A DNA stretch of 50,253 nucleotides from Candidatus Omnitrophota bacterium (lineage in GTDB: Bacteria > Ratteibacteria > UBA8468 > B48-G9 > JAFGKM01), in the NCBI GenBank assembly GCA_016928555.1, contig JAFGKM010000038.1, forward strand, positions 1 to 50,253, in the 5' to 3' direction. Position numbers and translations under genes: made by a program. The notes beneath the pieces were generated by a model, which worked only from the letters and a program-made list of their open reading frames with translations, was not told the DNA's origin and made no database searches. Of the stretch, positions 7,489 to 32,221 are shown one piece after another (position 1 is the first letter of the stretch; the number at the start of each line of letters is the position of its first letter).

Positions 7489-8493
7489 ATGGTGAAGATA
7501 GGAGTTAATGGCTTCGGAAGGATAGGAAGGCTGGTTTTAAGGGCGGCGCTGGAAAAAAAGTATCCCGGGATAGAATTCGTCGCATTCAACGATATTGCCG
7601 ACGCAAAAACCCTTGCGCATCTTTTCAAGTATGATTCCAACTACGGCATATACCCCGGGGATGTTTCCGCAAAAGACAACGCGGTGGTTGTTGACGGCAG
7701 AGAATACAAGGTTTTTGCAGAAAGAGACCCGAAGAACCTGCCGTGGAAGAGCCTGGGCGTTGACATAGTCGTGGAGTCAACCGGGCTGTTCACGGATGCC
7801 GCAAAAGCAAAAGCCCACATTGAAGCGGGAGCGAAAAAGGTGCTTATTTCCGCTCCGGGAAAGGGCGAAGACGTAACTATAGTGCTGGGCGCAAATGAAA
7901 AGGATTACGACCCGGCAAAACACAATATAATATCAAACGCTTCCTGCACCACAAACTGTCTCGCTCCGCTGGCAAAGGTGCTTGTTGACAGCTTCGGGGT
8001 AAAGATGGGGCTGATGACAACCATACACGCATATACGAACGACCAGAAAATAATGGACGCTCCGCATAAAGACCTGCGCAGGGCGAGGTCCGCGGCTCTG
8101 TCAATGATACCGACAACCACGGGGGCCGCCAAAGCCATCGGCAAGGTCATCCCCGAATTAAACGGCAAGATGAACGGTTTGGCAATAAGGGTTCCCACTT
8201 CAACGGTATCTCTCGTAGACCTGGTAGTCACTCTTGAAAAAACAACCGATGCGGACACGATAAATGCCGCTTATAAGAAAGCGGCCGAAGGAAGCTTAAA
8301 GGGGATTCTTCATTACTGCGACGAACCTCTGGTATCCAAAGATTTCGTAAAGAACCCGAATTCCTGCATATATGATGCCGCGGCAACATATATCGTAGGA
8401 GACATGGTAAAGGTGCTTGGCTGGTACGACAACGAATGGGCATACAGCTGCAGGGTTGTCGACCTTATCAAATACATGGTGGAAAAGCAGTAA
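7489..8493 (+). CDS. gapA: glyceraldehyde-3-phosphate dehydrogenase, type I
   Basis: [14 protein letters not shown] and [12 protein letters not shown] motifs; SD GGAGG at 7479-7483 before ATG 7489 (listed ORF start 7339 is too far upstream). Confidence 0.97.
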
Positions 8494-8508
8494 ATTTCGG
8501 AGGAACCA

Positions 8509-9693
8509 ATGGAACTGAAGACCATAGAAGATGCGGGGTATGCCGGCAAACGCGTATTTCTCAGGGTTGATTTTAACGTTCCGATTGAAAAGGGCGAAGT
8601 AAAGGACGATACGAGGATAAGAGCGGCCCTGCCCACGATAGAATACCTGCTGAAGCAGGGGGCGTCCCTCGTAATTTCTTCCCATCTCGGCAGGCCGAAA
8701 GGAAAAGCTGTGCCGGAAATGAGCCTGAAGCCCGTTGCGGAAAAACTAAGCAGTCTGCTGGGCGGAAAGGAAGTCGGGTTTGCTTCCGACTGCATGGGAG
8801 ACGAAGTAAAAAAATCCGCACAGAGCCTTAAAGCCGGAGAGATGCTTCTTCTTGAGAACCTTAGATTCCACGGAGAAGAAGAGGAGGGCGATGAAGGATT
8901 CGCCCGCCGGCTCGCTTCTTTGGCCGACTGTTACGTAAACGACGCATTCGGAACATGCCACAGGAAGCACGCGTCAATATACGGAATAACCAAACTTTTT
9001 GACAGCACAGCCGCGGGATACCTTATACAAAAAGAGGTTTTCGCACTGTCAAAACTTCTTGAAAATCCGGAAAAGCCGTTCCTGATGATTCTGGGGGGAG
9101 CAAAGGTGGCGGACAAGATAGGGATGGTCAAAAACCTTCTCGGAAAGATAGACACTCTTATAACCGGCGGAGTAATGGCGTACACATTCGTCCAAGCAAA
9201 AAACTGGGAGATAGGCGCATCAAAGGTTGAACACGACGCCGTCCCTCTTGCCAAAGAAATTATAAAAGAAGTAAACAAGCGCCATCTTGAATTCCATACT
9301 CCGCTGGACCATATTATCGCCGACAGGATTTCAGCAGATTCCCACCATTTCGCCACGGAAAGAGGAACCGTCCCTAAAAACTGGATAGGCGTTGACATAG
9401 GACCCCAGGCGGTGGAAGAATACATTGACTGCATAAAACGGGCGAAAACCATATTCTGGAACGGCCCCATGGGCATATATGAAATTGAAGAATTCGCAAA
9501 AGGCACGGAGGCTCTTGCAAAGGCAATCGGAGAAGCAGGGGTTTTTTCGGTCATAGGAGGGGGAGATTCCATAGCGGCGGTAAACAAAGCGGGCGTTGCC
9601 GACAGAATATCGCATATATGCACGGGAGGAGGAGCATCGCTCGAGTTTTTGGAAAAGGGGACGCTCCCGGGGATAGAGGTATTAAAAAGGTAG
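8509..9693 (+). CDS. pgk: phosphoglycerate kinase
   Basis: RVDFNVP, SHLGRPKG, GGGDSIAAV motifs. Confidence 0.97.
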   Translation: MELKTIEDAGYAGKRVFLRVDFNVPIEKGEVKDDTRIRAALPTIEYLLKQGASLVISSHLGRPKGKAVPEMSLKPVAEKLSSLLGGKEVGFASDCMGDEVKKSAQSLKAGEMLLLENLRFHGEEEEGDEGFARRLASLADCYVNDAFGTCHRKHASIYGITKLFDSTAAGYLIQKEVFALSKLLENPEKPFLMILGGAKVADKIGMVKNLLGKIDTLITGGVMAYTFVQAKNWEIGASKVEHDAVPLAKEIIKEVNKRHLEFHTPLDHIIADRISADSHHFATERGTVPKNWIGVDIGPQAVEEYIDCIKRAKTIFWNGPMGIYEIEEFAKGTEALAKAIGEAGVFSVIGGGDSIAAVNKAGVADRISHICTGGGASLEFLEKGTLPGIEVLKR

Positions 9694-9711
9694 AGGTGCG
9701 ATTTATCGCAC
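9690..9711 (+). repeat. REP-like element: GTAG-AG-GTGCGAT-TT-ATCGCAC
   Basis: 7-bp perfect arms preceded by GTAG; overlaps pgk stop TAG (9691-9693). Confidence 0.7.
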
Positions 9712-9761
9712 GGCTTTTAAATAATAGCGGTACCGTTGACTTACAAGGAGAGCAAAATCCG

Positions 9762-10511
9762 ATGAAGAAAAGTCTGATTGCGGGAAACTGGAAGATGTAT
9801 AAGACCCCGAAAGAATCCGTTGAATTCGCAAAGGAACTAGTAAAAAACACGGGCTTTCACGATGACAGGGATATTCTTATCTGCCCTCCTTTCACCTCTC
9901 TGCTTCAGGTATCAGAAGTTGTTTCGGGAACGGCGCTAAAACTCGGAGCGCAGAATGTCTGCTTTGAAGACGAGGGGGCATTCACCGGGGAGATATCAAC
10001 AGGGATGCTGAAGGAAACAGGGGTTGAATATATAATCTGCGGCCATTCGGAAAGAAGGAATATTTTCGGAGAAACCAATTTTGTCGTAAACAAAAAAGTC
10101 AGGAAAACGGCAGAGGCAGGCATTAACCCGATTTTGTGCGTAGGGGAAAAACTTGAAGAGCGCGAAAGCGGAAAAGCCTTTGAAGTTATAAGCTCTCAAG
10201 TCAGGGAATCTCTTGAAGGATTTAAACAGCCCGAGATGATTGTTGTCGCTTACGAACCCGTATGGGCGATAGGAACGGGAAAGACAGCAACACCCGAGCA
10301 GGCCGAGGAAGTTCATGCCTTCATAAGAAACTTGCTTGCGGAACTTTTTGATAAAAACCTGTCGGAGAGTATAATAATACTTTACGGGGGAAGCGTAAAG
10401 CCCGACAACATAGATTCAATAATGCTTCAGAAGAACATTGACGGGGTGCTTGTGGGCGGAGCAAGCCTGAAGGTGGATTCTTTCACAAGGATAATTGATT
10501 ATAAGGCGTAA
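9762..10511 (+). CDS. tpiA: triosephosphate isomerase
   Basis: AGNWKMYKT, GHSERR, YEPVWAIGTGK motifs; SD aaggag. Confidence 0.97.
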   Translation: MKKSLIAGNWKMYKTPKESVEFAKELVKNTGFHDDRDILICPPFTSLLQVSEVVSGTALKLGAQNVCFEDEGAFTGEISTGMLKETGVEYIICGHSERRNIFGETNFVVNKKVRKTAEAGINPILCVGEKLEERESGKAFEVISSQVRESLEGFKQPEMIVVAYEPVWAIGTGKTATPEQAEEVHAFIRNLLAELFDKNLSESIIILYGGSVKPDNIDSIMLQKNIDGVLVGGASLKVDSFTRIIDYKA

Positions 10512-10520
10512 ACATTGAAA

Positions 10521-10568
10521 AAATCCCCCCATACCCCCCTTTGCAAAGGGGGGATTAAGAGGGGATTT
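10521..10568. repeat. palindromic element family A (AAATCCCCCCATACCCCCCTTTGCAAAGGGGGGATTAAGAGGGGATTT)
   Basis: Near-identical copies at 17506-17555 and 21646-21693; related tandem pair at 27670-27769. Confidence 0.85.
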
Positions 10569-10582
10569 GAAGGAGAGAAAAA

Positions 10583-10894
10583 ATGTACTTATTCTTACTG
10601 ATTTTTCACATTATTATTTCCCTGCTCCTCATTGGAGCGGTGCTTTTACAGTCGGGAAAAGGCTCATCTCTTTCAAACATATTCGGAGGGGGCGGGATGG
10701 AGACTGTTTTCGGCGCTGAGACTTCAATAATTTTGAATAGAATGACTTCAGTACTGGCAATAATCTTTATAGTGAATTCAATACTTCTTGCCACTTTGCC
10801 CGGCAAACTGACAACAAGAAGCGTTCTAAAAGAAGCCGTCCAGAAAGAACAGCCTGCCGCCCCTCCCGTTCTCCCCGTAATTCCGGAAGAATGA
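10583..10894 (+). CDS. secG: preprotein translocase subunit SecG
   Basis: Two TMs, LIGAVLLQSGKGSSLSNIFGGGG. Confidence 0.92.
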   Translation: MYLFLLIFHIIISLLLIGAVLLQSGKGSSLSNIFGGGGMETVFGAETSIILNRMTSVLAIIFIVNSILLATLPGKLTTRSVLKEAVQKEQPAAPPVLPVIPEE

Positions 10895-10936: not shown

Positions 10937-11680
10937 ATGGATAGACTTATAACGCTTCCCTCGAAAGGTACTGCTGTTTTCGTCGGAGATACGCACGGCG
11001 ATTATAAAAGCGCGAGGGTAATCGTCAAAAACTTCATCGGAAAAAAAGATTACTATGTTATTATGCTGGGGGATTACGTTGACAGGGGAGAAGATTCGCA
11101 AAAAAATATAGAGTTCCTGATTGAAACCCAGAAAGAGCATCCCAACCTCATCCTGCTTGCAGGCAACCATGAAATGTTTCCCTTGAGAGAATGCAGTCCC
11201 GCCGACTTCTGGGATTCCCTTGATAAAGAAAACTTTGAGCGCTATAAAAACTTTTTTCTGAACCTGCCTTTTGCGGTATCCGGCAGGGGCTTTATCGCTC
11301 TCCACGGAGCTCTCCCCGACATAGAAAAAATTGAGGATATAAATGATATTAAGCCGTGCGGCGCCGGATGGACAAGGATATTCTGGGGCGATTTCAGGGA
11401 CAAAGAGGGCGATTACCTCGGTGATTTTCTCGGGAGACCGAAGTTCGGCAGGGACTATTTTACGAGAGTCATGGAAAAAATAGGCAAGAACGTGCTCATC
11501 CGAGGACACGACCCGGCCGCGCCGGAGAAGATGTACGGCAACAGGTGCCTGACTATATTCACGTCTTCCGCCTTCGGCCCCAAAAAAAGAAAAATAGCGG
11601 TGTGCAGTCTGGAGAAAGAGATGCGCACCATAGACGATATGGAAATAATATCTTTGGACCTTCAGGAGATTTCAATATGA
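10937..11680 (+). CDS. PPP-family serine/threonine protein phosphatase (metallophosphoesterase)
   Basis: GDTHGD, GDYVDRG, LAGNHE signatures. Confidence 0.88.
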   Translation: MDRLITLPSKGTAVFVGDTHGDYKSARVIVKNFIGKKDYYVIMLGDYVDRGEDSQKNIEFLIETQKEHPNLILLAGNHEMFPLRECSPADFWDSLDKENFERYKNFFLNLPFAVSGRGFIALHGALPDIEKIEDINDIKPCGAGWTRIFWGDFRDKEGDYLGDFLGRPKFGRDYFTRVMEKIGKNVLIRGHDPAAPEKMYGNRCLTIFTSSAFGPKKRKIAVCSLEKEMRTIDDMEIISLDLQEISI

Positions 11681-12549
11681 GAGCGCCGAATTTCGGAGGA
11701 TATAAGCTTGACGAGGTTATCGGAGGAGGGATGTACACAAAAATATACAGGGCATCCTCTTCCCTTGCAAGGCCCATATACGGACATACCGTGGCGATAA
11801 AACTTCTTTATCTTAAAGGCACTCCGCGGGAACACGGAAAATTGATAAGCCAGTTTGAGAGAGAAGCCGAAATAGCCATAGGGCTGAACCATCCCAATAT
11901 AGTAAAGGTCCACAACTTCGGAAAGTATAACAACCAGTACGCGATAATAATGGAGTACGTGCACGGAAACAATCTTAAAGAAATACTGTACAAAAAAGAC
12001 AAACTTCCCCTTGATATTCTGGTCCGGATACTTTATGAAGCCGGGCAGGGGCTTGCGCACATTCATAATAACAACATCGTGCACAAGGACGTAAAACCTG
12101 ACAACATACTTGTTTCGGCTGATTTCAACACCGTAAAGATGACGGATTTCGGGATAGCCAAGCTTCCCAAAAGGCTGTGGCAGAAAGATATCTTTCCGAA
12201 GGGGGGGACGGTAACAAAATACGGGACTATCTCTTACGTGGCCCCCGAACAGACCGAAGGCAAAGCTGATTTCCGTTCGGACATATACAGCTTCGGGGTT
12301 ACAATAGACGAAGTAATAACGGCAAAACTGGAAACACCTGACAACCCCGAAAAAAACATGGATGATTATTTTAAGCGGATAGACGTGCGCAGTTACAGGA
12401 AGAACATAGGCAAACAGCTTATTTTGTGCAATGATTTCATAATACCGCACGGACTCAAGGATATCATCAAAAAAGCGACTAACAGGGAGAGCTTGTTAAG
12501 ATACTCCTCCATGGAAGAATTGCTCAGGGATTTGAATCAATTTTCATAA
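11677..12549 (+). CDS. eukaryote-like serine/threonine protein kinase, apparently soluble
   Basis: VAIKLL, HKDVKPDNIL, TDFGIAKL, APEQ motifs; ATGA overlap with the phosphatase stop sets start at 11677. Confidence 0.88.
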   Translation: MRAPNFGGYKLDEVIGGGMYTKIYRASSSLARPIYGHTVAIKLLYLKGTPREHGKLISQFEREAEIAIGLNHPNIVKVHNFGKYNNQYAIIMEYVHGNNLKEILYKKDKLPLDILVRILYEAGQGLAHIHNNNIVHKDVKPDNILVSADFNTVKMTDFGIAKLPKRLWQKDIFPKGGTVTKYGTISYVAPEQTEGKADFRSDIYSFGVTIDEVITAKLETPDNPEKNMDDYFKRIDVRSYRKNIGKQLILCNDFIIPHGLKDIIKKATNRESLLRYSSMEELLRDLNQFS

Positions 12550-14456
12550 TGAGGACTAAAACAATCGCGCTTGTTTTTTTAATTTTGTGCCTTGCGGGAT
12601 GCCGCTTTCAGGCAGGGGGTAAAAACCCTTCCGACGACACTATCGTTCTTTCAACCGGAACGGACCCCAAGTCATTCAATCCCGTAATAGCTAAAGAAAC
12701 CAGCACGACGGCAATTACAGGCTTTATATTCCAGGGTTTGACGGAAACCGACGGGGTAACTCTGGAAGTCAAGCCTTGCCTCGCAAAAAGATGGGAGCAT
12801 GACGGGAGCGGCAGGATATGGAGATTTTTTCTCAGGGAAGACGTTAAATGGAATGACGGGAATGATTTCACCGCAGACGACGTTATATTCACCTTCAACC
12901 GGCTGATATACAACCCGGATATTCCAACCAGCAGCAGGGACGTCCTTAATATTGACGGAAAACCCTTTAAGGTCAGAAAAATAGACGCACATACGGTAGA
13001 ATTCGCTCTCCCCGATAAATTCGCACCTTTTCTTCAGTTGATGAGCCAGGAGATACTCCCCCGGCATAAGCTTGCATCCGCCGTTGAAGAAGGAGTTTTC
13101 AACAGCCGCTGGGGCGTAAACGAAAAGGTTGAAAATATCGTGGGGACGGGGCCTTTCATGCTTGAGGAATACAGGCCTGCCGAATGGATAATACTGAAAA
13201 AAAATCCGCTGTACTGGAAAAAAGACGGGGCGGGAATTTCTCTGCCCTATATTGAAAGAATTGTTTTCCTGATAATAGCCGATACCAATATGGCCGTCCT
13301 CAAATTCAAAACGGGAGAGATAGATTTGATACCGGTGAGAGGGCAGGATTATCCGGTACTGAAGCCTTTTGAGAAAGAACATGATTTTACGATATACGAG
13401 ATGGGGCCTTCCATGGGTTCCGAATTCATCGCCTTTAACCAGAACATACAGGCGCCGGCTTCCATGCATAAGAAAGAGTGGTTCGGTAACAGGAATTTCA
13501 GGAGAGCGGTGGCACATTCAATCGACAAAAAAAGCATTTCAAAAAACGTTTACGGCGGATTCGCCATACCTCAATACGGGCCGATGAACGTTTCCTCGGG
13601 ATTTTTCAACAATCCGGAAATAAGAAAATACGCATACGATATTGAAAAAGCGGGGGAGATATTAAGACAGGAAAGTTTTTACAGAAAAAACGGGGCGCTT
13701 TTTGACAAGCGGGGCAATCCGGTGGAATTCACTATCATCACAAACAGCAATAACTTTGAAAGGATACAGATTGCAAACATAGTACAGGACGACCTTAAGA
13801 AGCTCGGGATGAAAGTAAACCTTCTGCCCGTGGAATTCAATACCATGGTGACGCAGATAAGCGTCACAAGAAACTGGGAATCGGTTATAATCGGACTGAC
13901 CGGAGGCATAGAGCCTCACGGAGGGAAAAACGTCTGGCATACGGACGGCCAGCTGCATATCTGGAACATGGAGCCGGATGAAAAGAACGTCGCCTCATGG
14001 GAAAGGAAAATCAATTTAATATTTGAAGAGGGCGTAAAACGGCTGGACCCGGCAGGCAGGAAAAAACTATATGACGAGTGGCAGGAAATAACGGCAGAAG
14101 AACTGCCGCTGATATATACGGCAAGTCCCTCGGCCATGAGTGCGGTGAGAAACCGCTTCGGGAACCTCAAGCCGACCGTATACGGAGGAGCTCTGCATAA
14201 CATAGAGGAGATTTACATAAAGGGAGACGAAGAGAAAAGGTTGAGATTGCCGCTGAATATTCACCCCCTCCTTTTATCCTCCCCCCTCGAGGGGGAGGAA
14301 GATAGGTGGGGGGGCAATCTTTTCCGGCTCGCAATGACAATAAGCGTCATTTCACGATTTTTAAAGAAAAATGGAAACGTACAGATTGAGGATATATTAC
14401 TCAAAAACAGGGATTGCAAGGTTTATATCAGAGAAAAACCTGCAGAAGATTATTGA
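12549..14456 (+). CDS. ABC-type peptide/nickel substrate-binding lipoprotein (SBP family 5)
   Basis: Lipobox LAGC; SBP_bac_5 signature region GTDPKSFNPV..., FRRAVAHSIDKK; C-terminus is read-through of repeat DNA. Confidence 0.88.
   Translation: MRTKTIALVFLILCLAGCRFQAGGKNPSDDTIVLSTGTDPKSFNPVIAKETSTTAITGFIFQGLTETDGVTLEVKPCLAKRWEHDGSGRIWRFFLREDVKWNDGNDFTADDVIFTFNRLIYNPDIPTSSRDVLNIDGKPFKVRKIDAHTVEFALPDKFAPFLQLMSQEILPRHKLASAVEEGVFNSRWGVNEKVENIVGTGPFMLEEYRPAEWIILKKNPLYWKKDGAGISLPYIERIVFLIIADTNMAVLKFKTGEIDLIPVRGQDYPVLKPFEKEHDFTIYEMGPSMGSEFIAFNQNIQAPASMHKKEWFGNRNFRRAVAHSIDKKSISKNVYGGFAIPQYGPMNVSSGFFNNPEIRKYAYDIEKAGEILRQESFYRKNGALFDKRGNPVEFTIITNSNNFERIQIANIVQDDLKKLGMKVNLLPVEFNTMVTQISVTRNWESVIIGLTGGIEPHGGKNVWHTDGQLHIWNMEPDEKNVASWERKINLIFEEGVKRLDPAGRKKLYDEWQEITAEELPLIYTASPSAMSAVRNRFGNLKPTVYGGALHNIEEIYIKGDEEKRLRLPLNIHPLLLSSPLEGEEDRWGGNLFRLAMTISVISRFLKKNGNVQIEDILLKNRDCKVYIREKPAEDY
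14244..14336. repeat. nested palindromic element: AGATTGCC ... CTCGAG-centred C/G hairpin ... GGCAATCT ... CTCGCAATGAC
   Basis: AGATTGCC/GGCAATCT inverted arms around TCCTCCCCCCTCGAGGGGGAGGA; related to elements at 37412 and 41347 and to the C-rich family. Confidence 0.7.
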
Positions 14457-14946
14457 ACGGACATTGAGAAGGGCAGATGTTCCTTTGAAATATACCGAAG
14501 GTTTCAGCCCCCATCCGAAAATAAGCTTCGGGCATCCTCTGCCCGTCGGCGTTTCGGGCGAAAGCGAGTGCTTTGACGTGTATCTTGCCGGAAAATTCGA
14601 CATCCCGGGATTTATGGATAAAAGCGGGGAATTCCTCCCCGAGGGGGTCTCCTTTACTTACGCGGAGCGGATAAGCAAAGACGCTCCTTCCATAAACAGC
14701 ATGGAAACCTATGCACGTTATACATTGGAAGCAAACAAAGAACTTCATCCCGAAACACTGCAGGAGTTCGGAAGGATACTCAATATTGATAAAAACAGGG
14801 CGGTTTTACTTATAAAAATAAACAATTTCAGCCACAAAGGCCTTACGGGACTGTTGATTGACGGGACGATAAGCAGTATAAGGCGGAACATTTCGCGGGA
14901 GAAACAGGAAAATGAACAAAGAATACAGAATGCTGATAAGCAATGA
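14371..14946 (+). CDS. TIGR03936-like (DUF2344) radical-SAM-linked protein
   Basis: RIYYSKTGIARFIS...TEGFSPHPKISFGHPLPVGVSGESECFDVYL; adjacent to rng as commonly seen. Confidence 0.85.
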   Translation: METYRLRIYYSKTGIARFISEKNLQKIIERTLRRADVPLKYTEGFSPHPKISFGHPLPVGVSGESECFDVYLAGKFDIPGFMDKSGEFLPEGVSFTYAERISKDAPSINSMETYARYTLEANKELHPETLQEFGRILNIDKNRAVLLIKINNFSHKGLTGLLIDGTISSIRRNISREKQENEQRIQNADKQ

Positions 14947-16360
14947 ACAATTTCTGACGCGGGCGGCAATTATGTCGGGCGGAAGGGTGGAATATCTTTT
15001 TGTGTCCAGGCAGGATACCGGCGCCTGCGTCGCCAATATTTACAAGGGGCGGATTGAAAGAATCGTAACCGGGCTCAATGCGGCTTTTGTCAATATAGGG
15101 GAATCACGCAACGGATTTCTCCCTTTCGGCAAGGACGAACCGCTGTACCGCATGCCCGAGCCTGAAGAAGCGGGTTCCAAACAGCCGCAAACAACCCGCA
15201 GAACGGGAGAAGAACTCATAGTGCAGGCTGTAAGGCCGGGTACATCCGAAAAAGGGATGAAGCTGACAACAAAAGTTTCCATACCCGGAAGGTACATTAT
15301 CCTCATCCCTGATTCTTCGCTGAGGACGCTCTCAAAAAAAATAACGGACAGGAAAGAAAGAGAACGGCTTCTGAATATTGCGAATAAAAGGATTTTTGAC
15401 AATACGGGCTTCATAATACGCACGGCCGCGGAAGGAAAAAACGAAGGCTATATCATAAGGGAGCTCAAGATTCTGCTCAGCATATGGAGCAAAGCGAAAA
15501 GACATGCCAGGATGAAAAAAGCGCCTTCGCTCGTCTGGAAAGAAGAGCCGGTTTATATAAACGCAGTCAGGGACTATGTAACATCCGATTTTAAGCAGAT
15601 TATCGTTGACGATGAAAGAACGTATAGGGAGGTAAAGAGATACGTCAATCTCTTTCTCCCCGAAATGCGCGGGAAGGTTCTTCTGCACAAGGAACGGATT
15701 CCTCTCTTTTTGAAACACGGCCTTGAGAAGGAAATAGAAAATTTTCTTGCAAAAAAAGTTTCACTTCCGTCGGGAGGCTCTCTGATAATTGAAGAAGGGG
15801 AAACCCTGAACGCGATAGACGTAAACAGCGGCAGCAGCGACAAATCCGGCATCAGGGAAACAATCCTGAACGCTAACCTTGAAGCCGCCGAGGAGATACC
15901 GAGGCAAATAAGAGCGAGGAACCTTTCCGGCCTGATAGTCGTTGATTTCATAGACATGAAACACCAGAGGGAAAGAAGAAAAGTTTTTAAAACGCTGAGC
16001 GACAACCTTGAGATAGACAAGGCGCAGACGAAGATTCTTTCAATATCAAAACTCGGAATAGTGGAGATGAGCAGGGAAAAAACCGACTTTAAACTTTCTG
16101 ACCTGCTTCTGGAAAAGTGCGAAAGGTGCAAGGGAACCGGCTACGTGAAGAATGTGTTTTTTTCCGCACTAAAATTGAGAAACGAGGTGCTGTCACGCAT
16201 CGCAAAAAACCCGGGAAGGAAATTTACCGTTGAATCGTCAAGCAATATTTACGAGTTTATCAACGGCAATAAGCTTCTGAGCGAAATGCTGAAAAAACAC
16301 AGAATACGCTTAAGGGAAGTCCATGCATTCAGAGAATCGGAGTTCAAGATTATAGACTGA
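14912..16360 (+). CDS. rng: ribonuclease G (RNase E/G family)
   Basis: S1-like N-terminus, AIDVNSGS, CERCKGTGYV zinc-link motif. Confidence 0.92.
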   Translation: MNKEYRMLISNEQFLTRAAIMSGGRVEYLFVSRQDTGACVANIYKGRIERIVTGLNAAFVNIGESRNGFLPFGKDEPLYRMPEPEEAGSKQPQTTRRTGEELIVQAVRPGTSEKGMKLTTKVSIPGRYIILIPDSSLRTLSKKITDRKERERLLNIANKRIFDNTGFIIRTAAEGKNEGYIIRELKILLSIWSKAKRHARMKKAPSLVWKEEPVYINAVRDYVTSDFKQIIVDDERTYREVKRYVNLFLPEMRGKVLLHKERIPLFLKHGLEKEIENFLAKKVSLPSGGSLIIEEGETLNAIDVNSGSSDKSGIRETILNANLEAAEEIPRQIRARNLSGLIVVDFIDMKHQRERRKVFKTLSDNLEIDKAQTKILSISKLGIVEMSREKTDFKLSDLLLEKCERCKGTGYVKNVFFSALKLRNEVLSRIAKNPGRKFTVESSSNIYEFINGNKLLSEMLKKHRIRLREVHAFRESEFKIID

Positions 16361-16688: not shown

Positions 16689-17471
16689 ATGGCTAAGAGA
16701 TATAAAGTAAACGGTTTTCACGGATATCAGAAGATAGTTGCGCCGGAAAATTCAGACTTGAAGAAAATCAATCTCGCCTTCATCAAAAATCCGGAAAGCG
16801 GCAAATATGAAGGGTTGACTGCCGGCGAGGAGAGTGCCTTTATCCTGACTCAGGGAAACATACGGTTTTTCCTTGAGGGCAAACTGCTCGGTGAATTATC
16901 AAGAAAAAACGTTTTTGACGAACCTCCTTCCGGAGTCTACCTGCCGCCTTATTCGAATTATTCAATTGTATTCGTAAAAGAAAGCGAAATATGCGTGGCA
17001 AGCTGTACGGCTGCGGGGAAAAACAAGGCAAGGCTGATTGAAAAAAGGGATGTAAGGGTGAAAAGGGTGGGGGAAGAGCCGTTTTTGAGGAGCATGAACG
17101 AAATCATGCCCGAAGATTTTCCCGCGGAAAAACTTATAATTGGCGAAACCATAACCGATCCGGGAAACTGGGCGAGCTACCCGCCGCATAAGCACGATAC
17201 CGACAAGCCGAATGAAGAAACGGTTTTTGAAGAATTATATTATTTCAAGATAGCGCCGAGGACGGGATTCGGCTCAATAAGGATTTTCAGCAATCCCGAA
17301 GACAATATTTTTCTGATAAAAAACGATGAGGTTGTTACGATACCCAGAGGATATCACCCCGTTTCCGTCGCCCCTAAGCATCAGTTGTACTATCTTTGGG
17401 TTCTTGCAGGCGAAACAAGGAAACTGATATCCTTCGTACATCCCGATTACAGATTCAACGGCAAACCGTAG
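16689..17471 (+). CDS. 5-deoxy-glucuronate isomerase family (IolB-like)
   Basis: Cupin ASYPPHKHDTDKPNEETVFEELYYFK...GYHPVSVAPKHQLYYLWVLAG. Confidence 0.85.
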   Translation: MAKRYKVNGFHGYQKIVAPENSDLKKINLAFIKNPESGKYEGLTAGEESAFILTQGNIRFFLEGKLLGELSRKNVFDEPPSGVYLPPYSNYSIVFVKESEICVASCTAAGKNKARLIEKRDVRVKRVGEEPFLRSMNEIMPEDFPAEKLIIGETITDPGNWASYPPHKHDTDKPNEETVFEELYYFKIAPRTGFGSIRIFSNPEDNIFLIKNDEVVTIPRGYHPVSVAPKHQLYYLWVLAGETRKLISFVHPDYRFNGKP

Positions 17472-17505
17472 AATAAGTCTGAGGGCAATTCAGTTCCCTC
17501 TCACA

Positions 17506-17555
17506 AAATCCCCCCATTCCCCCCTTTGACAAAGGGGGGACTTAAGAGGGGATTT
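17506..17555. repeat. palindromic element family A
   Basis: AAATCCCCCCATTCCCCCCTTTGACAAAGGGGGGACTTAAGAGGGGATTT. Confidence 0.85.
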
Positions 17556-17575
17556 CAGAACGAGGAGGAGCAAAA

Positions 17576-18400
17576 ATGGAATATCTGGACAGGATGTTTT
17601 CTCTAAAAGGAAAAACGGCTGTTATAACGGGAGGAGCGGGAATACTGGGCGGCGAAATATCCCGCGGACTGGGACGTGCCGGCGCAAAGATTATCATATG
17701 CGACCTGAAGAATGCAGGAGAGGCGGCGGCGGACCTCGGCAAAGAAAATATCGAGGCTGACGGTTTCTTTATAGACGTTCTCAAAAAAAACGTAATAGAG
17801 GAGGCCGCGGCAGGCATTATTGACAGGCACAAAAGAGTGGATATTCTCATAAACGCCGCCGGCGGCAATCTGAAGGAAGCAACGACGTCAGCCGACCTTT
17901 CATTCTTCGACCTGCCTCTTGCGGCGATGGAAAAAGTGATCGCCCTGAACCTTTTCGGCGGCGCAATACTTCCCTCGCAGGTATTCGGGAAAGAAATGAT
18001 AAAAAATTCGGACGGAGGGACAATAATCAACATCTCTTCCATGAACGCTTTCCGTCCCCTCACGAGAATACCGGGGTACTCCGCCGCAAAGGCGGCCGTG
18101 AGCAATTTTACGCAGTGGCTCGCAGTCCATCTCGCGCAGGAATACAATAAGAAGATACGCGTCAACGCCATAGCTCCGGGTTTTTTCCTGACTACGCAGA
18201 ACAAGTATCTGCTTACAGACGAAAAAGGCGGGCTTACGCAGAGAGGACAGTCTATCATAAATCACACCCCGATGGGGAAATTCGGGGAACAATCGGACCT
18301 GGCGGGCATCTGCATATACCTCGCCTCGGAAGCTTCGGGCTTTGTCACAGGAACGGTGATACCGGTGGATGGAGGGTTCAGCGCATTCTCCGGCGTATAG
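17576..18400 (+). CDS. SDR family oxidoreductase (possible D-mannonate oxidoreductase-type)
   Basis: TGGAGILGGEISRGLG, YSAAKAAV, PVDGGFSAFSGV. Confidence 0.85.
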   Translation: MEYLDRMFSLKGKTAVITGGAGILGGEISRGLGRAGAKIIICDLKNAGEAAADLGKENIEADGFFIDVLKKNVIEEAAAGIIDRHKRVDILINAAGGNLKEATTSADLSFFDLPLAAMEKVIALNLFGGAILPSQVFGKEMIKNSDGGTIINISSMNAFRPLTRIPGYSAAKAAVSNFTQWLAVHLAQEYNKKIRVNAIAPGFFLTTQNKYLLTDEKGGLTQRGQSIINHTPMGKFGEQSDLAGICIYLASEASGFVTGTVIPVDGGFSAFSGV

Positions 18401-18432
18401 GAAAAAACAAGTTACAAGTGCCGTTTTCTGTC

Positions 18433-18457
18433 ATTCTTGCGGACAGTAAGCAGGAAT
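18433..18457. repeat. degenerate GTCATTCYTGC...GCAGGAATC palindrome (family D-like)
   Basis: ATTCTTGC/GCAGGAAT arms with one G-U pair. Confidence 0.4.
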
Positions 18458-18535
18458 CTTAAATAGAAACAAAATCATGAACCCCTCACTTTGAAAGTTT
18501 AGTATTAGAGGGTTCGGGGTAAAGGAGAAAAGGAA

Positions 18536-20029
18536 ATGAACGGAAAAGCTGATATAGGCGTAATCGGAATGGAAGTAATGGGAAAGAACCTGGCGTTGAA
18601 TATGGAAAGCCGGGGGTATACCGTTGCGGTGTTCAACAGGACGGAATCAAAAACAAAGGATTTCATTGAGGGGCCGGCCAAAGGGAAAAACTTTGTTCCT
18701 TCGTATGAACTTCAGAACTTCGTATCATCACTTAAAACGCCGAGAAAAATAATGCTGATGGTCAAGGAAGGCGCGCCGGTTGACGGATTCATAGAAAAAC
18801 TTCTTCCGCTTCTTGACAAGGGAGACCTCGTCATAGACGGCGGAAATTCCTTCTTTAAGGATACCATCAGGAGAAACTCTGAACTGACGGAGAAGGGCAT
18901 CCTATTTATAGGAACGGGAGTTTCCGGAGGAGAAGAAGGCGCCCTGAAGGGCCCGGCAATCATGCCCGGGGGACAGAAAGAAGCTTATCAGCTGGTTGAA
19001 AAGATTTTCACGGACATTTCGGCAAAAGCGGAAGACGGAAAGCCCTGCGTAACCTACATAGGACCGAACGGCGCCGGGCATTTCGTGAAGACAACGCACA
19101 ACGGAATAGAATACGGCGACATGCAGTTGATAGGGGAATGCGCATCGGTATTCAAGAAAACGGGAATGAACGCCGAGGAAATCGCCGGAATCATGGAAAA
19201 ATGGAACGGGAAAAGCGATATCCTCCGCTCCTACCTCATAGAGATAACCGCCGACAGCATGAAGGAAAAGAACAAGGCGGGAGAAGGCTATCTGGTGGAC
19301 ATAGTGGCGGACATCACCAGAATGAAAGGCACGGGGACGTGGACCATACAGAGCGCTCTGGAATTGCTCGTACCGGTTCCCACCATAGCATCGGCCGTCT
19401 TTTCCAGAGAGATGTCGCAGGATAAGGACCTGCGCCTGAAAATGGGAACCATACTCAACATTCCCGAAGCGGAAAAACTGCCGGAAGACAAACAAAAATT
19501 GATAGATATCGCTCACGACGCCCTCTACATAGCCAAGATATCGTCCTATGCCCAGGGGCTGGCTCTCCTGCAGGCGGCGTCGCGGGAATACAAGTTTGAG
19601 CTGAACCTCGGAGAGATAGCGCAGATATGGCGCGGCGGATGCATCATACGCGCGCAGTTCCTTGACGAAATAACAAAGGCTTACAAGGAAAACCCCAGCC
19701 TGCCGAACCTTCTGGCATCTCCGAAATTCTCCGATTTCGTCAACAAGAACCTGTGGAAGCTGGCACGGTTCATTGAGATAGCGCATAAATCAGGAGTTTC
19801 GGCGCTCGGCATGGCATCCTCTTACGACTACATACTGCAGATTGCCTCGCCCGTTATGGTATCTGCACAGGTTTCCGCTCTGCAGAGGGATTATTTCGGC
19901 GCGCACGGGTACTTCAAAATCGGAGGGGAAAAACAGCCGGAGATAATAACCAACAGCGAAAAGAAGATGAGAGAATTCCATACTGAATGGATGCTCCCGG
20001 GCAGGCCGGAAAAAGAAATAACCAAATAA
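18536..20029 (+). CDS. gnd: 6-phosphogluconate dehydrogenase (decarboxylating)
   Basis: IGVIGMEVMGKNLALNMESRGY, GPNGAGHFVKTTHNGIEYGDMQ, WRGGCIIRA. Confidence 0.96.
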   Translation: MNGKADIGVIGMEVMGKNLALNMESRGYTVAVFNRTESKTKDFIEGPAKGKNFVPSYELQNFVSSLKTPRKIMLMVKEGAPVDGFIEKLLPLLDKGDLVIDGGNSFFKDTIRRNSELTEKGILFIGTGVSGGEEGALKGPAIMPGGQKEAYQLVEKIFTDISAKAEDGKPCVTYIGPNGAGHFVKTTHNGIEYGDMQLIGECASVFKKTGMNAEEIAGIMEKWNGKSDILRSYLIEITADSMKEKNKAGEGYLVDIVADITRMKGTGTWTIQSALELLVPVPTIASAVFSREMSQDKDLRLKMGTILNIPEAEKLPEDKQKLIDIAHDALYIAKISSYAQGLALLQAASREYKFELNLGEIAQIWRGGCIIRAQFLDEITKAYKENPSLPNLLASPKFSDFVNKNLWKLARFIEIAHKSGVSALGMASSYDYILQIASPVMVSAQVSALQRDYFGAHGYFKIGGEKQPEIITNSEKKMREFHTEWMLPGRPEKEITK

Positions 20030-21645: not shown

Positions 21646-21693
21646 AAATCCCCCCATACCCCCCTTTGACAAAGGGGGGACAAGAGGGGATTT
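21646..21693. repeat. palindromic element family A
   Basis: AAATCCCCCCATACCCCCCTTTGACAAAGGGGGGACAAGAGGGGATTT. Confidence 0.85.
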
Positions 21694-21712
21694 CAAGGAG
21701 GAAAAGAACACG

Positions 21713-22750
21713 ATGGATTTTGTTAAACTGACTGACGAGCAGATAAAACACGACCCGGAACAACAGCTGAAAAATTTCAAAAGGACAAAAGACTTCCTCG
21801 TTGCGATTGACACCGACGGCTGTGTCACCGACAATATGAGCGGCAAGCAGATGCTTATTTTCCATCCGCAGTACATGGAATTCTACCAGCTGTGGGATAT
21901 GGAATCGTATTTCAGGGAGGTTGCCGAATACTACAACCTTTTTTCGGTTCAAAGGGGATGCAACAGATTCCTTGCCATTCAGTACACGCTCAGGGCGCTC
22001 CACCTGCGTCTGGACGCCCGGAAGGCGGCAGAGGAAAACAACGTTGAAATTCCCGCTCAGGAACCTCTGGACAAGTACATTGAATACTGCGAAAAAAATA
22101 AGCTCGGCCTCGGCAATCCGAGCCTTGTAAAATATCTCAACACCATGCCCAAAGATCTTTACCTTTATAAGCTTCTGGGCTGGAGCGAAGCGGTCAACAG
22201 AATGTTCCCTTACATAAAGATACCTCCTTTTGAAAACGTTGAGGAGTGTCTGAAAATAATGGCTGAAAAAGCGGACGTTATGGTTGTCTCGCAGACGCCT
22301 TACGAAGACCTCGTAAACTTCTGGGGAGATAATAATCTTCTTAAATATATAAAAGCGATAGCGGGCCAGGAGATGGGCAAAAAGGGACATCACATAGAGA
22401 CTGTAAAAAAAGCCTGCGGATATGCCGAATCAAACATACTTATGCTCGGAGACGCCGACGGCGACCTGAAGGCCGTAAAACAAAACAACGGGCTCTTTTA
22501 TCCCATCCCGGCAGGCATTGAAAACGAGGCATGGAAAAAATTCCCGGGATATTTTGAAAAGTTCATAAATAGCGCTTACGCCGGCGAAACTGAAAAAATG
22601 CTGATTGAAGAATTTTCCGCAGTACTCCTGAAAACCCCGCCGTGGGAAGAGAAAGGGTACGTGCACGCGGACGCATACAGGGTAAAACAGGAGACGAGGA
22701 AACATCTTTACAAAAAACTTCACCCTGCCGGCAAATTACTGGTGTTATAG
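21713..22750 (+). CDS. HAD-superfamily hydrolase with large helical cap, function unknown
   Basis: AIDTDG motif I, VVSQTP motif II, GDADGD motif IV. Confidence 0.75.
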   Translation: MDFVKLTDEQIKHDPEQQLKNFKRTKDFLVAIDTDGCVTDNMSGKQMLIFHPQYMEFYQLWDMESYFREVAEYYNLFSVQRGCNRFLAIQYTLRALHLRLDARKAAEENNVEIPAQEPLDKYIEYCEKNKLGLGNPSLVKYLNTMPKDLYLYKLLGWSEAVNRMFPYIKIPPFENVEECLKIMAEKADVMVVSQTPYEDLVNFWGDNNLLKYIKAIAGQEMGKKGHHIETVKKACGYAESNILMLGDADGDLKAVKQNNGLFYPIPAGIENEAWKKFPGYFEKFINSAYAGETEKMLIEEFSAVLLKTPPWEEKGYVHADAYRVKQETRKHLYKKLHPAGKLLVL

Positions 22751-22771
22751 AGAAGAAGATACGGGGGATAC

Positions 22772-22824
22772 GGGGTCAACTCTTGACACTTGACAAAATG
22801 TGTCAAGTGTCAAGAGTTGACCCC
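22772..22824. repeat. perfect inverted repeat, 24-bp arms, 5-nt loop
   Basis: GGGGTCAACTCTTGACACTTGACA-aaatg-TGTCAAGTGTCAAGAGTTGACCCC. Confidence 0.95.
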
Positions 22825-22833
22825 ATACAGAAA

Positions 22834-24105
22834 ATGTATAAAGGAAAAGAAAACAGGGAAAAACCATTTACGGAAGAGGAACTTAAGGATATATGCGGGG
22901 AAAGCCTGACAGCGATAAAGGATTTTTCCGGCAAAAAAGTTCTGGTAATCATCCCGGATACCACGCGCTCCGGACCTACGGATCTTCTCTTCCGATATAT
23001 TCACGAAACGCTTTCGCCTAATGCAAAGAGTGTAGATTTTCTCATAGCTTTGGGCACACACCCTATCATGTCGGAAGACAAGATTGATTCCTTTCTGAAC
23101 ATTAACAAAAAAGACAGGGAAACGAAGTATAAAAATTCTTCCATCTTCCAGCATCATTGGGACAAGCCGGAAGAGATTGCTTATATAGGAACCATCTCAG
23201 CGTCAAAAATCAGGGAGATTTCAAACGGACTGCTCTCTGAAGAAATCCCCGTAACCATAAACAGTAAGGTTTTTGAATACGACGAGGTAATACTTGCGGG
23301 CCCTGTATTCCCGCACGAAGTGGTGGGCTTTTCCGGCGGATACAAATACCTGTTTCCGGGAATATCAGGCCCCGATTTTCTGCATAAGTTCCACTGGCTC
23401 GGCGCTCTCATCACCAACCCGAAAATCAACGGCACAAAAGACACGCCAGTGCGCCGCGCCCTCAACGAAGCCGCAAAACTGCTGAAAATCCCCCTCACGA
23501 TCGTATGCTACGTCGTGCAGAAAGGCGGCGTTTACGGATTTTACGCCGGAGACGAGGAGGCATGGTCAAAGGCGGCAGACCTTTCCTCACAGCTGAATAT
23601 AAAATACGTGGACGGGCCTTTCAAAACCGTACTTTCCATAGCGCCTGAAATGTACGAGGACATATGGACGGCCGGAAAGTGCATGTACAAGCTTGAGCCC
23701 GTGGTTGCGGACGGCGGCACGCTGATAATATACGCCCCGCACGTAAAAGAGGTTTCGCACACGCACGGGCATGAGATTGAAAAAGTCGGGTACCATACAA
23801 GGGATTACTTTCTGAAACAGAAGGAGTGCTTTGAAAATGTATCCGGGTGCATCCTCGCCCATTCAACCCACGTCAAGGGTATAGGGACATTTGACGGCGG
23901 AACCGAACGCCCGAGGGTAACCGTCGTGCTGGCAACGGGCATTCCGGAAGAGACCTGCAGGAAGATAAACCTCGGCTACCTGGACTACAGGACAATCGAC
24001 ATTGAAGAATATAAAAAGCGCAAGGACACCCTCGTGGTTGAAAAAGCCGGCGAGGTGCTGTACCGCCTTAAAGACGGTAAAATCCCCGACATAGACAAAC
24101 TTTAA
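22834..24105 (+). CDS. lactate racemase domain (LarA/DUF2088) protein
   Basis: IIPDTTRSGPTDLLFRYIHETL...IALGTHPIMSEDKI; listed N-terminus before MYKGKENREK is translated intergenic repeat. Confidence 0.8.
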   Translation: MYKGKENREKPFTEEELKDICGESLTAIKDFSGKKVLVIIPDTTRSGPTDLLFRYIHETLSPNAKSVDFLIALGTHPIMSEDKIDSFLNINKKDRETKYKNSSIFQHHWDKPEEIAYIGTISASKIREISNGLLSEEIPVTINSKVFEYDEVILAGPVFPHEVVGFSGGYKYLFPGISGPDFLHKFHWLGALITNPKINGTKDTPVRRALNEAAKLLKIPLTIVCYVVQKGGVYGFYAGDEEAWSKAADLSSQLNIKYVDGPFKTVLSIAPEMYEDIWTAGKCMYKLEPVVADGGTLIIYAPHVKEVSHTHGHEIEKVGYHTRDYFLKQKECFENVSGCILAHSTHVKGIGTFDGGTERPRVTVVLATGIPEETCRKINLGYLDYRTIDIEEYKKRKDTLVVEKAGEVLYRLKDGKIPDIDKL

Positions 24106-25501: not shown

Positions 25502-26746
25502 CTATTCAAAACGGCTCGCCCATCCCGGCTTCGTCCACCTGAAAATGGTCAGCTCGGCATCCGACACCCCGGGCTCTCCCGGGGGATGCTGAGTCCTCAA
25601 AGCAGTATCATAGTGGACCATTCCGTTGTTGCTCACGACAATCTCGTTCGCCACAATGTCTCCGTAAATCTGTGCATTGTTTGAAACGACAATCTTGCCA
25701 TTGGGCGCATAAATAACTCCGACGATTGTGACCGAATTGTTTTCAATGGATTGCGTCTCGTTTGAAAGAATATATATTGCCAGGTTGGAAGCGCTCGGAG
25801 GGCTGTTAATATCCGAGCCGTTGCTCAGAATAATCTTGCTGCCTATGTATATCTCACTGACTCCGTTGAAAGTAAACGTGGTATTGTTATTCATTTTAAA
25901 AACCTGTTCAATGTACAGCCGCACATTGCCTGTCACGATAACGCTTGAGTTATTGTTCAGTTCAATATTCTTAAGCCTGTAGCTGCCCCCGGAGATTGTT
26001 ATGGAATTGTTATTATTAACCTGAAGATTGCCTCCGCTCAGCGTGTAGTTGCCTGAAGGCTGTATGCGGGAATCCCCATGCACGGGATAAGGAAGGACTT
26101 CAAGGTCGTCAGGCACATCAATCTGTGGCAGTTCTATTTCGGGAGCTGTATAATTCTTATTCCCCGTAATTCCATTGGAAGGGTCATAAATATCCGCAGG
26201 TTCTCCGGTGCTTACCGACGCATCCCCTCTCACTATTCCGTTGTTGTAAACCATAACGGAGTTGTTGCTTCTGACATCCCCGTCATTTCCCATGTTTGAA
26301 CCGCCGTACGGACCAAGCGCCGAATTGTAACTGTCAACAAAACCGTTATTCCATATGGTCACCCTGATACTCCCGAATATCCCGTGAGAAAATATGCCTC
26401 CACCGCCGCCATAGCCGAGCGTCAGTTTGACCGTTTCGCTTATATTGTTTACGGTCCCCGTGGAAATAACGTTTATGTCCTCATCCTCTTCCTCCAGCAC
26501 CACTGAAAATGAGCCGTCTCCCATATAAACAGGGGTTTCTTCAGGGTCCCATGTGATATCATCCGCAAGGTGCGCATACGCCCTGTATGCGCCGGCCTCG
26601 GCGAGATAAAAGGCCTTCTCTCTGTTCAGCCGCCTCCCCGCTCCTATTCTCTCCAGCCCGCCGAGGTATAATATGCCCAGGCCGATTATAACCATAATAA
26701 CTATCAATATCGCGGTTATCGGCAGAAGATACCCTTTATTATTCAT
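25502..26746 (-). CDS. PilX/DUF7305-type large minor pilin-like protein with Asn-rich repetitive passenger
   Basis: N-terminal TM GYLLPITAILIVIMVIIGLGILYLGG...EKAFYLAEAGAYRA; repeated NNxSxxIxG units; ATG at 26746 (ORF extension to 26812 is repeat DNA). Confidence 0.7.
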   Translation of the reverse strand: MNNKGYLLPITAILIVIMVIIGLGILYLGGLERIGAGRRLNREKAFYLAEAGAYRAYAHLADDITWDPEETPVYMGDGSFSVVLEEEDEDINVISTGTVNNISETVKLTLGYGGGGGIFSHGIFGSIRVTIWNNGFVDSYNSALGPYGGSNMGNDGDVRSNNSVMVYNNGIVRGDASVSTGEPADIYDPSNGITGNKNYTAPEIELPQIDVPDDLEVLPYPVHGDSRIQPSGNYTLSGGNLQVNNNNSITISGGSYRLKNIELNNNSSVIVTGNVRLYIEQVFKMNNNTTFTFNGVSEIYIGSKIILSNGSDINSPPSASNLAIYILSNETQSIENNSVTIVGVIYAPNGKIVVSNNAQIYGDIVANEIVVSNNGMVHYDTALRTQHPPGEPGVSDAELTIFRWTKPGWASRFE

Positions 26747-26772
26747 ATGCGTATTATCCCTTTTTGTCGTGG

Positions 26773-26797
26773 ATCCCTGCCTACAACATGCAGGGAT
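26773..26797. repeat. palindrome ATCCCTGC-ctacaacat-GCAGGGAT (family D)
   Basis: 8-bp perfect arms; CAGGGATGACA also at 41461. Confidence 0.75.
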
Positions 26798-26808
26798 GAC
26801 AGAAAACG

Positions 26809-27303
26809 TCAATTCCTCAGCCGCACAAGAAACTCGTTCTCCAGCAGTTTGCCGGCTTTTTCAACCTTGATATTTACGTTCACCGTATTAGTAAGTTCGG
26901 GATACTCGTAAAAATAAATTTCCGCCAGAGTATCCACGACAACCTCTGTCTTATCATTCTTGATATCTTCCAGAATAAGCTTACTGCCGCTCTTATAAAA
27001 TTCCTTTTCCCAGTTCATCTCCGGATCTTCATATCTGGCATTGATTCTTGCGCCTGCTTCCGGATCGCTGTCCTCCATTATATCCGATATTAAAAACTCG
27101 TTTGCCTCTTCCAGAATTGATTTAACCGTTAACGCCGCTATGTCCATATCCTCCTGCAGGGCTTTAATCTGTCTGCTTGTAAACCAGTCTCTGTACGCCG
27201 TATAAAGAAGAGTAGTTACCGCAAACAACCCTATAGCCGCGATAACAAGGACTACCATCAGCTCTATGAGGGTAACTCCTTTTCTGCAAATAACCTTTTT
27301 CAT
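26809..27303 (-). CDS. type IV pilin-like minor pilin (PilW-like)
   Basis: Prepilin N-terminus RKGVTLIELMVVLVIAAIGL. Confidence 0.75.
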   Translation of the reverse strand: MKKVICRKGVTLIELMVVLVIAAIGLFAVTTLLYTAYRDWFTSRQIKALQEDMDIAALTVKSILEEANEFLISDIMEDSDPEAGARINARYEDPEMNWEKEFYKSGSKLILEDIKNDKTEVVVDTLAEIYFYEYPELTNTVNVNIKVEKAGKLLENEFLVRLRN

Positions 27304-27306
27304 GCT

Positions 27307-27666
27307 TTACCTGTCGTATATATATGTGCTTAGAGAGACCTCTCCGCCCTGGCCCCATTCCACCAGCACGTTAACGCTTTTGAAAATAACATCGTCTTCA
27401 TTCACGATTTCAACGGAAGTAGTTCTCTCTCCGGTTAAATTGCCGATTGCAACATCTTCCTCCTCAACTCCTTCTTCTACCGAAGAATAGGCCAGCCCTT
27501 TTATTTTTTCCATTTTTTCAACGGCGGCCCATGTGGCGTACCTTTCAAGACGGGCGTTATAAAGATTCTTGCGGTTGGCAAAATAAAAAAAGGAGCTTCC
27601 TATCAATCCTATGGCAAGTATAATTGTTGCTATCAAAACCTCGACAAGAGTAAAACCTCGCTTCAT
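27307..27666 (-). CDS. type IV pilin-like minor pilin (PilV-like)
   Basis: Prepilin N-terminus MKRGFTLVEVLIATIILAIGLIG. Confidence 0.75.
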   Translation of the reverse strand: MKRGFTLVEVLIATIILAIGLIGSSFFYFANRKNLYNARLERYATWAAVEKMEKIKGLAYSSVEEGVEEEDVAIGNLTGERTTSVEIVNEDDVIFKSVNVLVEWGQGGEVSLSTYIYDR

Positions 27667-27669
27667 CTT

Positions 27670-27769
27670 AAAATCCCCCTTGAATCCCCCTTTTTAAAAG
27701 GGGGAGAGATTTATTCCTTTCTCCCTCTTCACCCCCCCCTTTGGCAAAGGGGGGCAGGGGGGGATTTCA
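27670..27769. repeat. tandem pair of family-A-like palindromes
   Basis: aaatcccccttgaatccccctttttaaaagggggagagattt and cccccccctttggcaaaggggggcaggggggg; directly upstream of pilV-like start on minus strand. Confidence 0.75.
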
Positions 27770-29083: not shown

Positions 29084-29087
29084 CTCC

Positions 29088-29570
29088 TCATTTTTTTATT
29101 TCAAGGGGAAGCATGGTATCCCCGCGCTTAATAATAACTTTGTCCTCCATCACTTTGTAAACTTCATACTCTCCTACAAGTTCTCCTTCTCCTTTAACCT
29201 CGTCGCCTATGATGGCGACGGGAGACTTGCCGTCAAAAATTATCCCGGACACGATTAATTCCGGAGTTTTTTCCTCATGCGCCGGTTCTCCTTCCGTTTC
29301 CTGCACTGTGCTCGGGGGAGGTATCAGAGAAACGAACGGGTCTTTCTTCGGACCTGCATTCCGGCGGATTTCCGCAGCCGGCAGGACGTCAAGCTTTTTT
29401 TTCAGCTGATGCAGGTTTTCCTCCACCTTGGTTATATCCAGAACCTTTGCGGCAGACGCCTCCGATGCCCTGGCGGAATCGCCTTTTTCCGGTTCTCCGC
29501 ATAACAGAACACAGGTTACGGCCAAACACAATATCAGATTAACTTTGAGTTTTTTTAACATCTCCGGCAT
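29088..29570 (-). CDS. PilP-like pilus assembly protein
   Basis: Position between pilO-like and secretin; DPFVSLIPPPS ... ELIVSGIIFDGKSPVAIIGDEV. Confidence 0.65.
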   Translation of the reverse strand: MPEMLKKLKVNLILCLAVTCVLLCGEPEKGDSARASEASAAKVLDITKVEENLHQLKKKLDVLPAAEIRRNAGPKKDPFVSLIPPPSTVQETEGEPAHEEKTPELIVSGIIFDGKSPVAIIGDEVKGEGELVGEYEVYKVMEDKVIIKRGDTMLPLEIKK

Positions 29571-31725: not shown

Positions 31726-31807
31726 GTCATCTGCCTTTTTTCAAAAATAAGTCCGTTTTAAAGAACCGGGGCCGTTTTGTGCAAACAGCCCCCCGTCCTT
31801 AAAATTG

Positions 31808-32221
31808 TCACAGCCCGTCATAAGTTATCGTTGCGCCTGCCGCATTCGTATAAGTCATCGTCACCGTTATGCCTGCGGCATCCCCCGCCCCGACAGTTTC
31901 CGCGGTAAATCCCGCGGCGCTTGCGGCGGTAACTTCATAGGTTGTGAAATACTTATTGCCCGTCGGGTCAACCCCGAGGTTGGTTGTCAGGTCGGCCATG
32001 TCGTCTTCCGGGCCGTAATACGAATTGTGCTCGGCATAATAGACTCTCTGTCCGGTCAGAACCGAACCGAGAAGAGCCGCTCCCTCGGCCGCCCTTGCCC
32101 TCTTGACCTGTCCCCTGAAAATCGGGATTGAGATGGCCGCAAGGATACCGACTATGATGACAACCGTCATCAATTCTATCAGCGTGAAACCTTTCCTGTT
32201 GCTTCTGACTTTCCTGAACAT
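31808..32221 (-). CDS. pilA: major type IV pilin (PilA/GspG-like)
   Basis: RKGFTLIELMTVVIIVGILAAISIPIF; SD aaggaggg. Confidence 0.88.
   Translation of the reverse strand: MFRKVRSNRKGFTLIELMTVVIIVGILAAISIPIFRGQVKRARAAEGAALLGSVLTGQRVYYAEHNSYYGPEDDMADLTTNLGVDPTGNKYFTTYEVTAASAAGFTAETVGAGDAAGITVTMTYTNAAGATITYDGL

Follow-up and report, generated by a model that had tools for sequence, protein, structure and literature searches.

The locus analysed here raises the question whether a predicted solute-binding lipoprotein (SBP), whose gene directly follows the genes of a protein phosphatase and a Ser/Thr kinase, belongs to the signalling pathway of these enzymes or to a transporter. The earlier note on this DNA had proposed that the lipoprotein may act with a matched kinase/phosphatase pair rather than as part of a transporter. 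In the window, i.e. the whole analysed stretch of 50,253 nucleotides, the three genes lie within a larger cluster:

7489..10894, plus strand: gap, pgk, tpi and secG, belonging to the upstream portion of a conserved housekeeping cluster (Pfam SecG; synteny in relatives)
10937..11680, plus strand: predicted PPP-family protein phosphatase of the archaeal/eukaryotic type (Metallophos; motifs GDTHG, GDYVDRG and GNHE)
11677..12549, plus strand: predicted soluble Hanks-type Ser/Thr kinase consisting of the kinase domain only (Pkinase; motifs)
12549..14219, plus strand: native part of a predicted SBP_5 oligopeptide-binding lipoprotein, Opp4A-like (SBP_bac_5; orthologue alignment)
14237..14340, plus strand: dispersed palindromic repeat replacing the stop region of the SBP gene (genome-wide copies)
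14371..14946, plus strand: DUF2344 / TIGR03936 protein, next gene of the cluster (profile match; synteny)
14912..16360, plus strand: ribonuclease E/G family protein, next gene of the cluster (profile match; synteny)
16689..20029, plus strand: KduI, SDR and gnd genes, belonging to the downstream portion of this cluster (profile match; synteny)

The three open reading frames and both of their overlaps are real: the stop codon of the phosphatase gene and the start codon of the kinase gene overlap in ATGA (11677-11680), and the kinase TAA ends on the base that begins the SBP ATG (12549). The phosphatase gene is not the start of the cluster, as gap, pgk, tpi and secG directly precede it on the same strand. 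An AGGAG sequence is present upstream of the kinase start, and since the SBP start has no such sequence close by, the SBP may need coupling to the kinase gene for its translation. In relatives the spacing varies from -32 to +56 nt between the phosphatase and kinase genes (most -4 to +7) and from -32 to +30 nt between the kinase and SBP genes (mostly -4 to +2), i.e. the exact overlaps are not conserved. Promoter and terminator scans returned weak consensus matches only. A single transcript for the pair and the SBP is likely in the families f1 and f2, from which a common function need not follow.

The SBP matches SBP_bac_5 (8.5e-81) and carries the lipobox LAGC, as described before. Its orthologues end at about residue 555-565, and its native end lies at ~residue 557 (~14219). 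The last ~78 codons of the open reading frame consist of the dispersed repeat and of read-through into the next gene. The palindromic repeat (~105 nt, 14237-14340) has near-identical copies at about seven loci, besides several shorter copies at other genome sites; past it, the SBP frame is read out of frame into the DUF2344 gene (start at 14371), giving an 86-base overlap. Due to the repeat and the out-of-frame reading the extended tail is probably not functional sequence. It is also because of the repeat that residues 558 onward match many genome sites: a query with the full 635-aa SBP gave 13 extra matches in the genome, which were rejected as paralogues since all of them fall in the C-terminal tail.

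Further elements were detected in the window. Another family of palindromic repeats (AAATCCCC...GGGGATTT) occurs at 10521-10570, 17506-17557 and 21646-21695, in intergenic positions including the tpi-secG and KduI-SDR gaps. A near-perfect inverted repeat (22769-22827; 27 nt arms, 5-nt loop) is located just past an open reading frame ending at 22750 and inside the listed open reading frame 22642-24105, the start of which is uncertain. The minus strand carries a type II secretion / type IV pilus cluster (25502-35235) with genes for a secretin, PilN, PilM, T2SSF and T2SSE with MshEN.

The kinase was assigned to Pkinase (1.9e-39), and the motifs VAIK, HKDVKPDNIL and DFG noticed previously were found again. 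Among 24 aligned orthologues the Gly-loop, the VAIK lysine, the alpha-C Glu, the catalytic D and N, DFG and PE(Q) are kept. HKD replaces HRD in 24/24 orthologues, which sets the protein apart from the RD kinases; this is a subclass difference and does not exclude it from the Hanks family. The nearest solved structures by sequence are kinases of the Stk1/StkP/PknB type. The protein comprises a kinase domain only, with no sensor, and the maximum 19-residue Kyte-Doolittle means of the kinase and the phosphatase (0.77 and 1.06) are below the level of SecG (2.96). Thus, both proteins are predicted to be soluble, neither containing a segment of sufficient hydrophobicity to form a membrane helix, in agreement with the earlier remark that the kinase has no obvious transmembrane or sensor domain.

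The phosphatase matches Metallophos (6e-19), and the motifs GDXHG, GDXXDRG and GNHE, present in 24/24 orthologues, place it in the PPP family. The motif (I/L/V)D(S/T)G, which Andreeva and Kutuzov found in every bacterial PPP that they examined, but in neither archaeal nor conventional eukaryotic PPPs (PMC535813), was detected in 0/24 orthologues; TSxxY stands in its place. The surrounding segment R.HDP...NRCLT.FTSxxY resembles the PP1 segment ending in SAPNY. Furthermore, W.DF and GR are invariant among the orthologues at the places of PP1 Asp208 and Arg221, and may correspond to these residues of the arginine clamp, i.e. an Asp and a downstream Arg. The equivalence to Arg221 is a matter of sequence alone, because the structure model (pLDDT 71, moderate confidence) is poor in the 147-170 loop. 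Where DP and RG doublets would be expected, the phosphatase has DF and mostly GRP or GRI. PP5 and PP1 were at or near the top in both sequence and fold searches. Judged by its motifs, the enzyme is predicted to carry archaeal/eukaryotic-type features and not to be a bacterial-type PPP.

An ApaH-like nucleotide hydrolase instead of a protein phosphatase seems highly improbable. The ApaH model does match residues 14-81, yet weakly, with 25 bits against a cut-off of 176. In ApaH the second Asp of GDXXDRG is altered (PMC535813), whereas GDYVDRG or GDYIDRG is intact in all 24 orthologues, and searches by sequence and by fold both gave PP5/PP1-like protein phosphatases as the top matches. Based on the motif test the identification as ApaH was rejected.

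The distribution of the two enzymes was compared in 35 genomes of the phylum, 28 from the order and 7 from other families of the class. Orthologues of the kinase were found in 26 of the 28 genomes of the order, and those of the phosphatase in the same 26/35; neither was detected in the 7 genomes of the other families. Of the two genomes of the order in which neither gene was found, one is 77% and the other 63% complete. Since only draft assemblies were compared, single absences are weak evidence. The kinase and phosphatase genes are adjacent in 25/26 genomes, and in the remaining one (G026) they are located at the ends of two contigs. A contig scan with peptide patterns of the pair from close relatives returned only 5 loci. 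Co-occurrence and adjacency thus strongly support that the phosphatase and the kinase form a true pair, and this part of the earlier proposal holds.

Bacterial kinases are usually partnered by PP2C enzymes (PMC6213207), and a survey found no correlation between the numbers of kinase and PPP genes (PMC2887360), which makes the co-occurrence in 26/26 genomes notable. A search for PP2C_2 (confined to PF13672) detected no member in the 35 genomes and matched 7/14 control genomes, and SpoIIE-type phosphatases were detected in three f5 genomes only. Genomes of the order mostly encode two or three Hanks kinases; none was found in the f4 and f5 genomes.

A second Hanks kinase gene lies beside a gene encoding a Metallophos_2 phosphoesterase (L182:4704-6326), followed by PRTase, carbamoyltransferase and UvrD genes. 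The second kinase and this calcineurin-fold phosphoesterase are adjacent in 23/25 genomes of the order; the phosphoesterase also occurs in f4 and f5, where kinases are lacking, and may have another role. A third Hanks kinase gene (L183:2277-6615) stands in a run with genes for a histone-deacetylase-domain protein, a homocysteine S-methyltransferase and a PriA 3'BD domain protein, which is kept in other members of the family.

The pair could in principle act in defence or as a toxin-antitoxin system, like modules of the KKP or type VII kind. The kinase matches PADLOC kinase models, e.g. PD-T4-6, as generic Hanks kinases do, but the phosphatase has no PADLOC match. KKP consists of two kinases and a PP2C (PF13672) phosphatase (PMC11341870), whereas one kinase and a PPP are encoded here, so that the locus does not belong to KKP, and its setting is a vertically conserved housekeeping cluster. 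A defence function was therefore rejected as exceedingly unlikely.

The association of the pair with the SBP has a different history. The SBP gene lies directly after the kinase gene in all 17 genomes of f1 and f2, often with overlapping ends, which makes selection for co-expression possible. Counter to this, the pair has also stayed behind secG, and secG and the SBP gene are co-located without the pair elsewhere. In f3, another family of the order, the SBP gene and the pair were found on different contigs in 7/7 genomes (e.g. G007:C2 vs G007:C9, the pair being contig-interior), and secG directly adjoins the SBP gene in 8/8. The f4 and f5 genomes keep the SBP without a kinase, and in the f5 genomes with upstream sequence (G031, G033) secG and the SBP gene are adjacent. 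The gene order gap-pgk-tpi-secG-SBP-DUF2344-(RNaseG)-KduI-SDR-gnd can be recognised in loci that contain the pair as well as in those that do not. Thus, the neighbourhood survey that the earlier note had suggested reveals homologous loci without the association of phosphatase, kinase and SBP_5 protein.

In a concatenated tree of the cluster proteins f1 and f2 form a clade (support 1.000) apart from f3 and f4/f5. Most simply, the cluster including the SBP gene would be older than the pair, which would have been inserted once between secG and the SBP gene in the ancestor of f1 and f2. Alternatively, an insertion in the ancestor of the order would need to have been followed by a precise relocation in f3.

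In f3 the pair (L138:8093-9700) is located between an aldo/keto reductase gene and a convergent YgbB gene, with a Maf gene nearby; in the genus g9 (L144) a GH42 beta-galactosidase gene comes after it. These different locations argue that the position of the pair is not tied to its function. They bear on the possibility that the pair has a regulatory role in glycolysis, protein export or peptide uptake, the SBP being one regulated neighbour and the location in the cluster reflecting this role. Such a role would fit the insertion site retained throughout f1 and f2, but appears unlikely given the neighbours of the pair in f3 and g9.

The description of the SBP as an orphan is true inside the window, where no ABC transporter gene was found among the proteins scanned (those ahead of the last ~5 kb), but not genome-wide, because the genome, which is 94% complete with 1.95 Mb in 94 contigs, contains one oppB-oppC-oppD-oppF operon on another contig (C44:3265-7264). 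No binding-protein gene was found near this operon in the 12 kb of the contig examined, and the genome has exactly one SBP_5 gene. All parts of an Opp4 importer are therewith present, i.e. an SBP_5 lipoprotein, two permeases and two oligo_HPY ATPases. Among the NCBIfam models, the SBP matched Opp4A best and the permeases Opp4B and Opp4C, with 155, 275 and 267 bits, all below the equivalog cut-offs of 650, 450 and 350 bits.

The relatives share this layout of a single SBP_5 gene per genome and stand-alone opp operons. SBP_5 genes were detected in 29/35 genomes, one in each except for one gene split across two contigs, and oligo_HPY ATPases in 30/35. None of the 18 inspected loci of relatives carrying oppBC genes has an SBP gene beside them. 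Opp genes without an SBP were found in the MAGs G029 and G032, and an SBP without opp genes in G016, G018, G028 and G033. A distance-correlation (mirror-tree) analysis of the SBP against OppB/C/D, the kinase and the phosphatase did not separate the candidate partners and is regarded as uninformative, because the control pair OppB-kinase had the highest partial correlation (0.84). In the simplest reading the SBP serves the unlinked OppBCDF importer, presumably with a peptide as ligand.

The lipoprotein might instead sense an extracellular peptide and signal to the pair, comparable to the control of PknG by GlnH-GlnX in corynebacteria and mycobacteria. The kinase-SBP order kept in f1 and f2 would agree with this, and the control of a soluble kinase by a binding lipoprotein has precedent (PMC9769921; PMC6069109). 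In that precedent, however, the two are linked by GlnX, a four-helix membrane protein, and at the locus no gene for a membrane protein linking SBP and kinase was detected between or beside these genes. Direct contact is unlikely as well, because the SBP is predicted to be exported and held by a lipid anchor, the kinase lacks a membrane segment and a GlnX-like coupler is not encoded here. Taking furthermore into account the separate f3 loci, the f4 and f5 genomes with an SBP but no kinase, and an importer of the same Opp4 subtype without an SBP of its own, such sensing seems very improbable. A phosphatase-kinase-lipoprotein signalling module is hence not supported. Both kinds of counter-evidence named in the earlier note, i.e. 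homologous loci without the association and candidate permease genes elsewhere in the genome, contradict the proposal that the lipoprotein acts with the pair and not with a transporter.

Sequence and synteny together indicate a kinase/phosphatase pair, its insertion, an unlinked importer and no detectable PP2C. We consider it probable (roughly 0.85) that two unrelated functions, an antagonist pair inserted once and the binding protein of OppBCDF, are combined in one transcription unit. The kinase would be an active cytoplasmic enzyme phosphorylating itself and further targets, and the phosphatase would reverse these phosphorylations. The pair would have entered the older housekeeping cluster between secG and the binding-protein gene in the ancestor of f1 and f2, while the SBP would be exported, lipid-anchored and hand peptides to the importer encoded elsewhere. 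A capture of the pair into a glycolysis-SecG-OppA operon in f1 and f2 that links Ser/Thr phosphorylation to peptide uptake, with the SBP or its importer as input and the PPP replacing PP2C as kinase antagonist across the order, appears decidedly improbable.

The locus illustrates that a close gene overlap can hint at a pathway which comparative synteny fails to support. In addition, it provides an example of a bacterial order that retains Hanks-type kinases together with PPP (calcineurin-fold) partners while PP2C is undetected. EukaryoticPPP-like sequences have been reported from few bacterial groups, mainly Deltaproteobacteria and Firmicutes (Kerk et al. 2021, PMC8249667), which makes the kinase-paired branch a useful case for testing whether eukaryotic-like PPPs antagonise kinases in bacteria.

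In comparison with known systems, the putative importer resembles Opp/Dpp importers of the Opp4 type in its oppBCDF gene order and in the best matches of the SBP, OppB and OppC, but differs in that the permease operon lies apart from the gene of the binding protein and the scores are below the curated cut-offs. With GlnH-GlnX-PknG the genome shares a solute-binding lipoprotein and a soluble Ser/Thr kinase, which occur there in one system; here no membrane coupler gene is present and the SBP_5 protein (Opp type) has a candidate permease of its own.

The pair resembles the Hanks kinase-PP2C pairs PrkC/PrpC, PknB/PstP and Stk1/Stp1 in the adjoining genes of a kinase and a putatively opposing Ser/Thr phosphatase. 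However, Metallophos is the only match of the phosphatase, which is a PPP and not a PP2C/PPM enzyme, and the kinase has neither a membrane segment nor a PASTA sensor as in PrkC/PrpC-type pairs. Finally, the phosphatase, the TSxxY of which resembles SAPNY, shares GDXHG, GDXXDRG and GNHE and an Asp with a downstream Arg at the expected clamp places with the EukaryoticPPP-like bacterial phosphatases, some variants of which, from a mixed bacterial/archaeal part of the tree, also have neither doublet (PMC8249667). It differs from that type in lacking the DP and RG doublets, in a shorter loop, in belonging to a lineage unnamed in the main text of PMC8249667 and in its tight pairing with a kinase.
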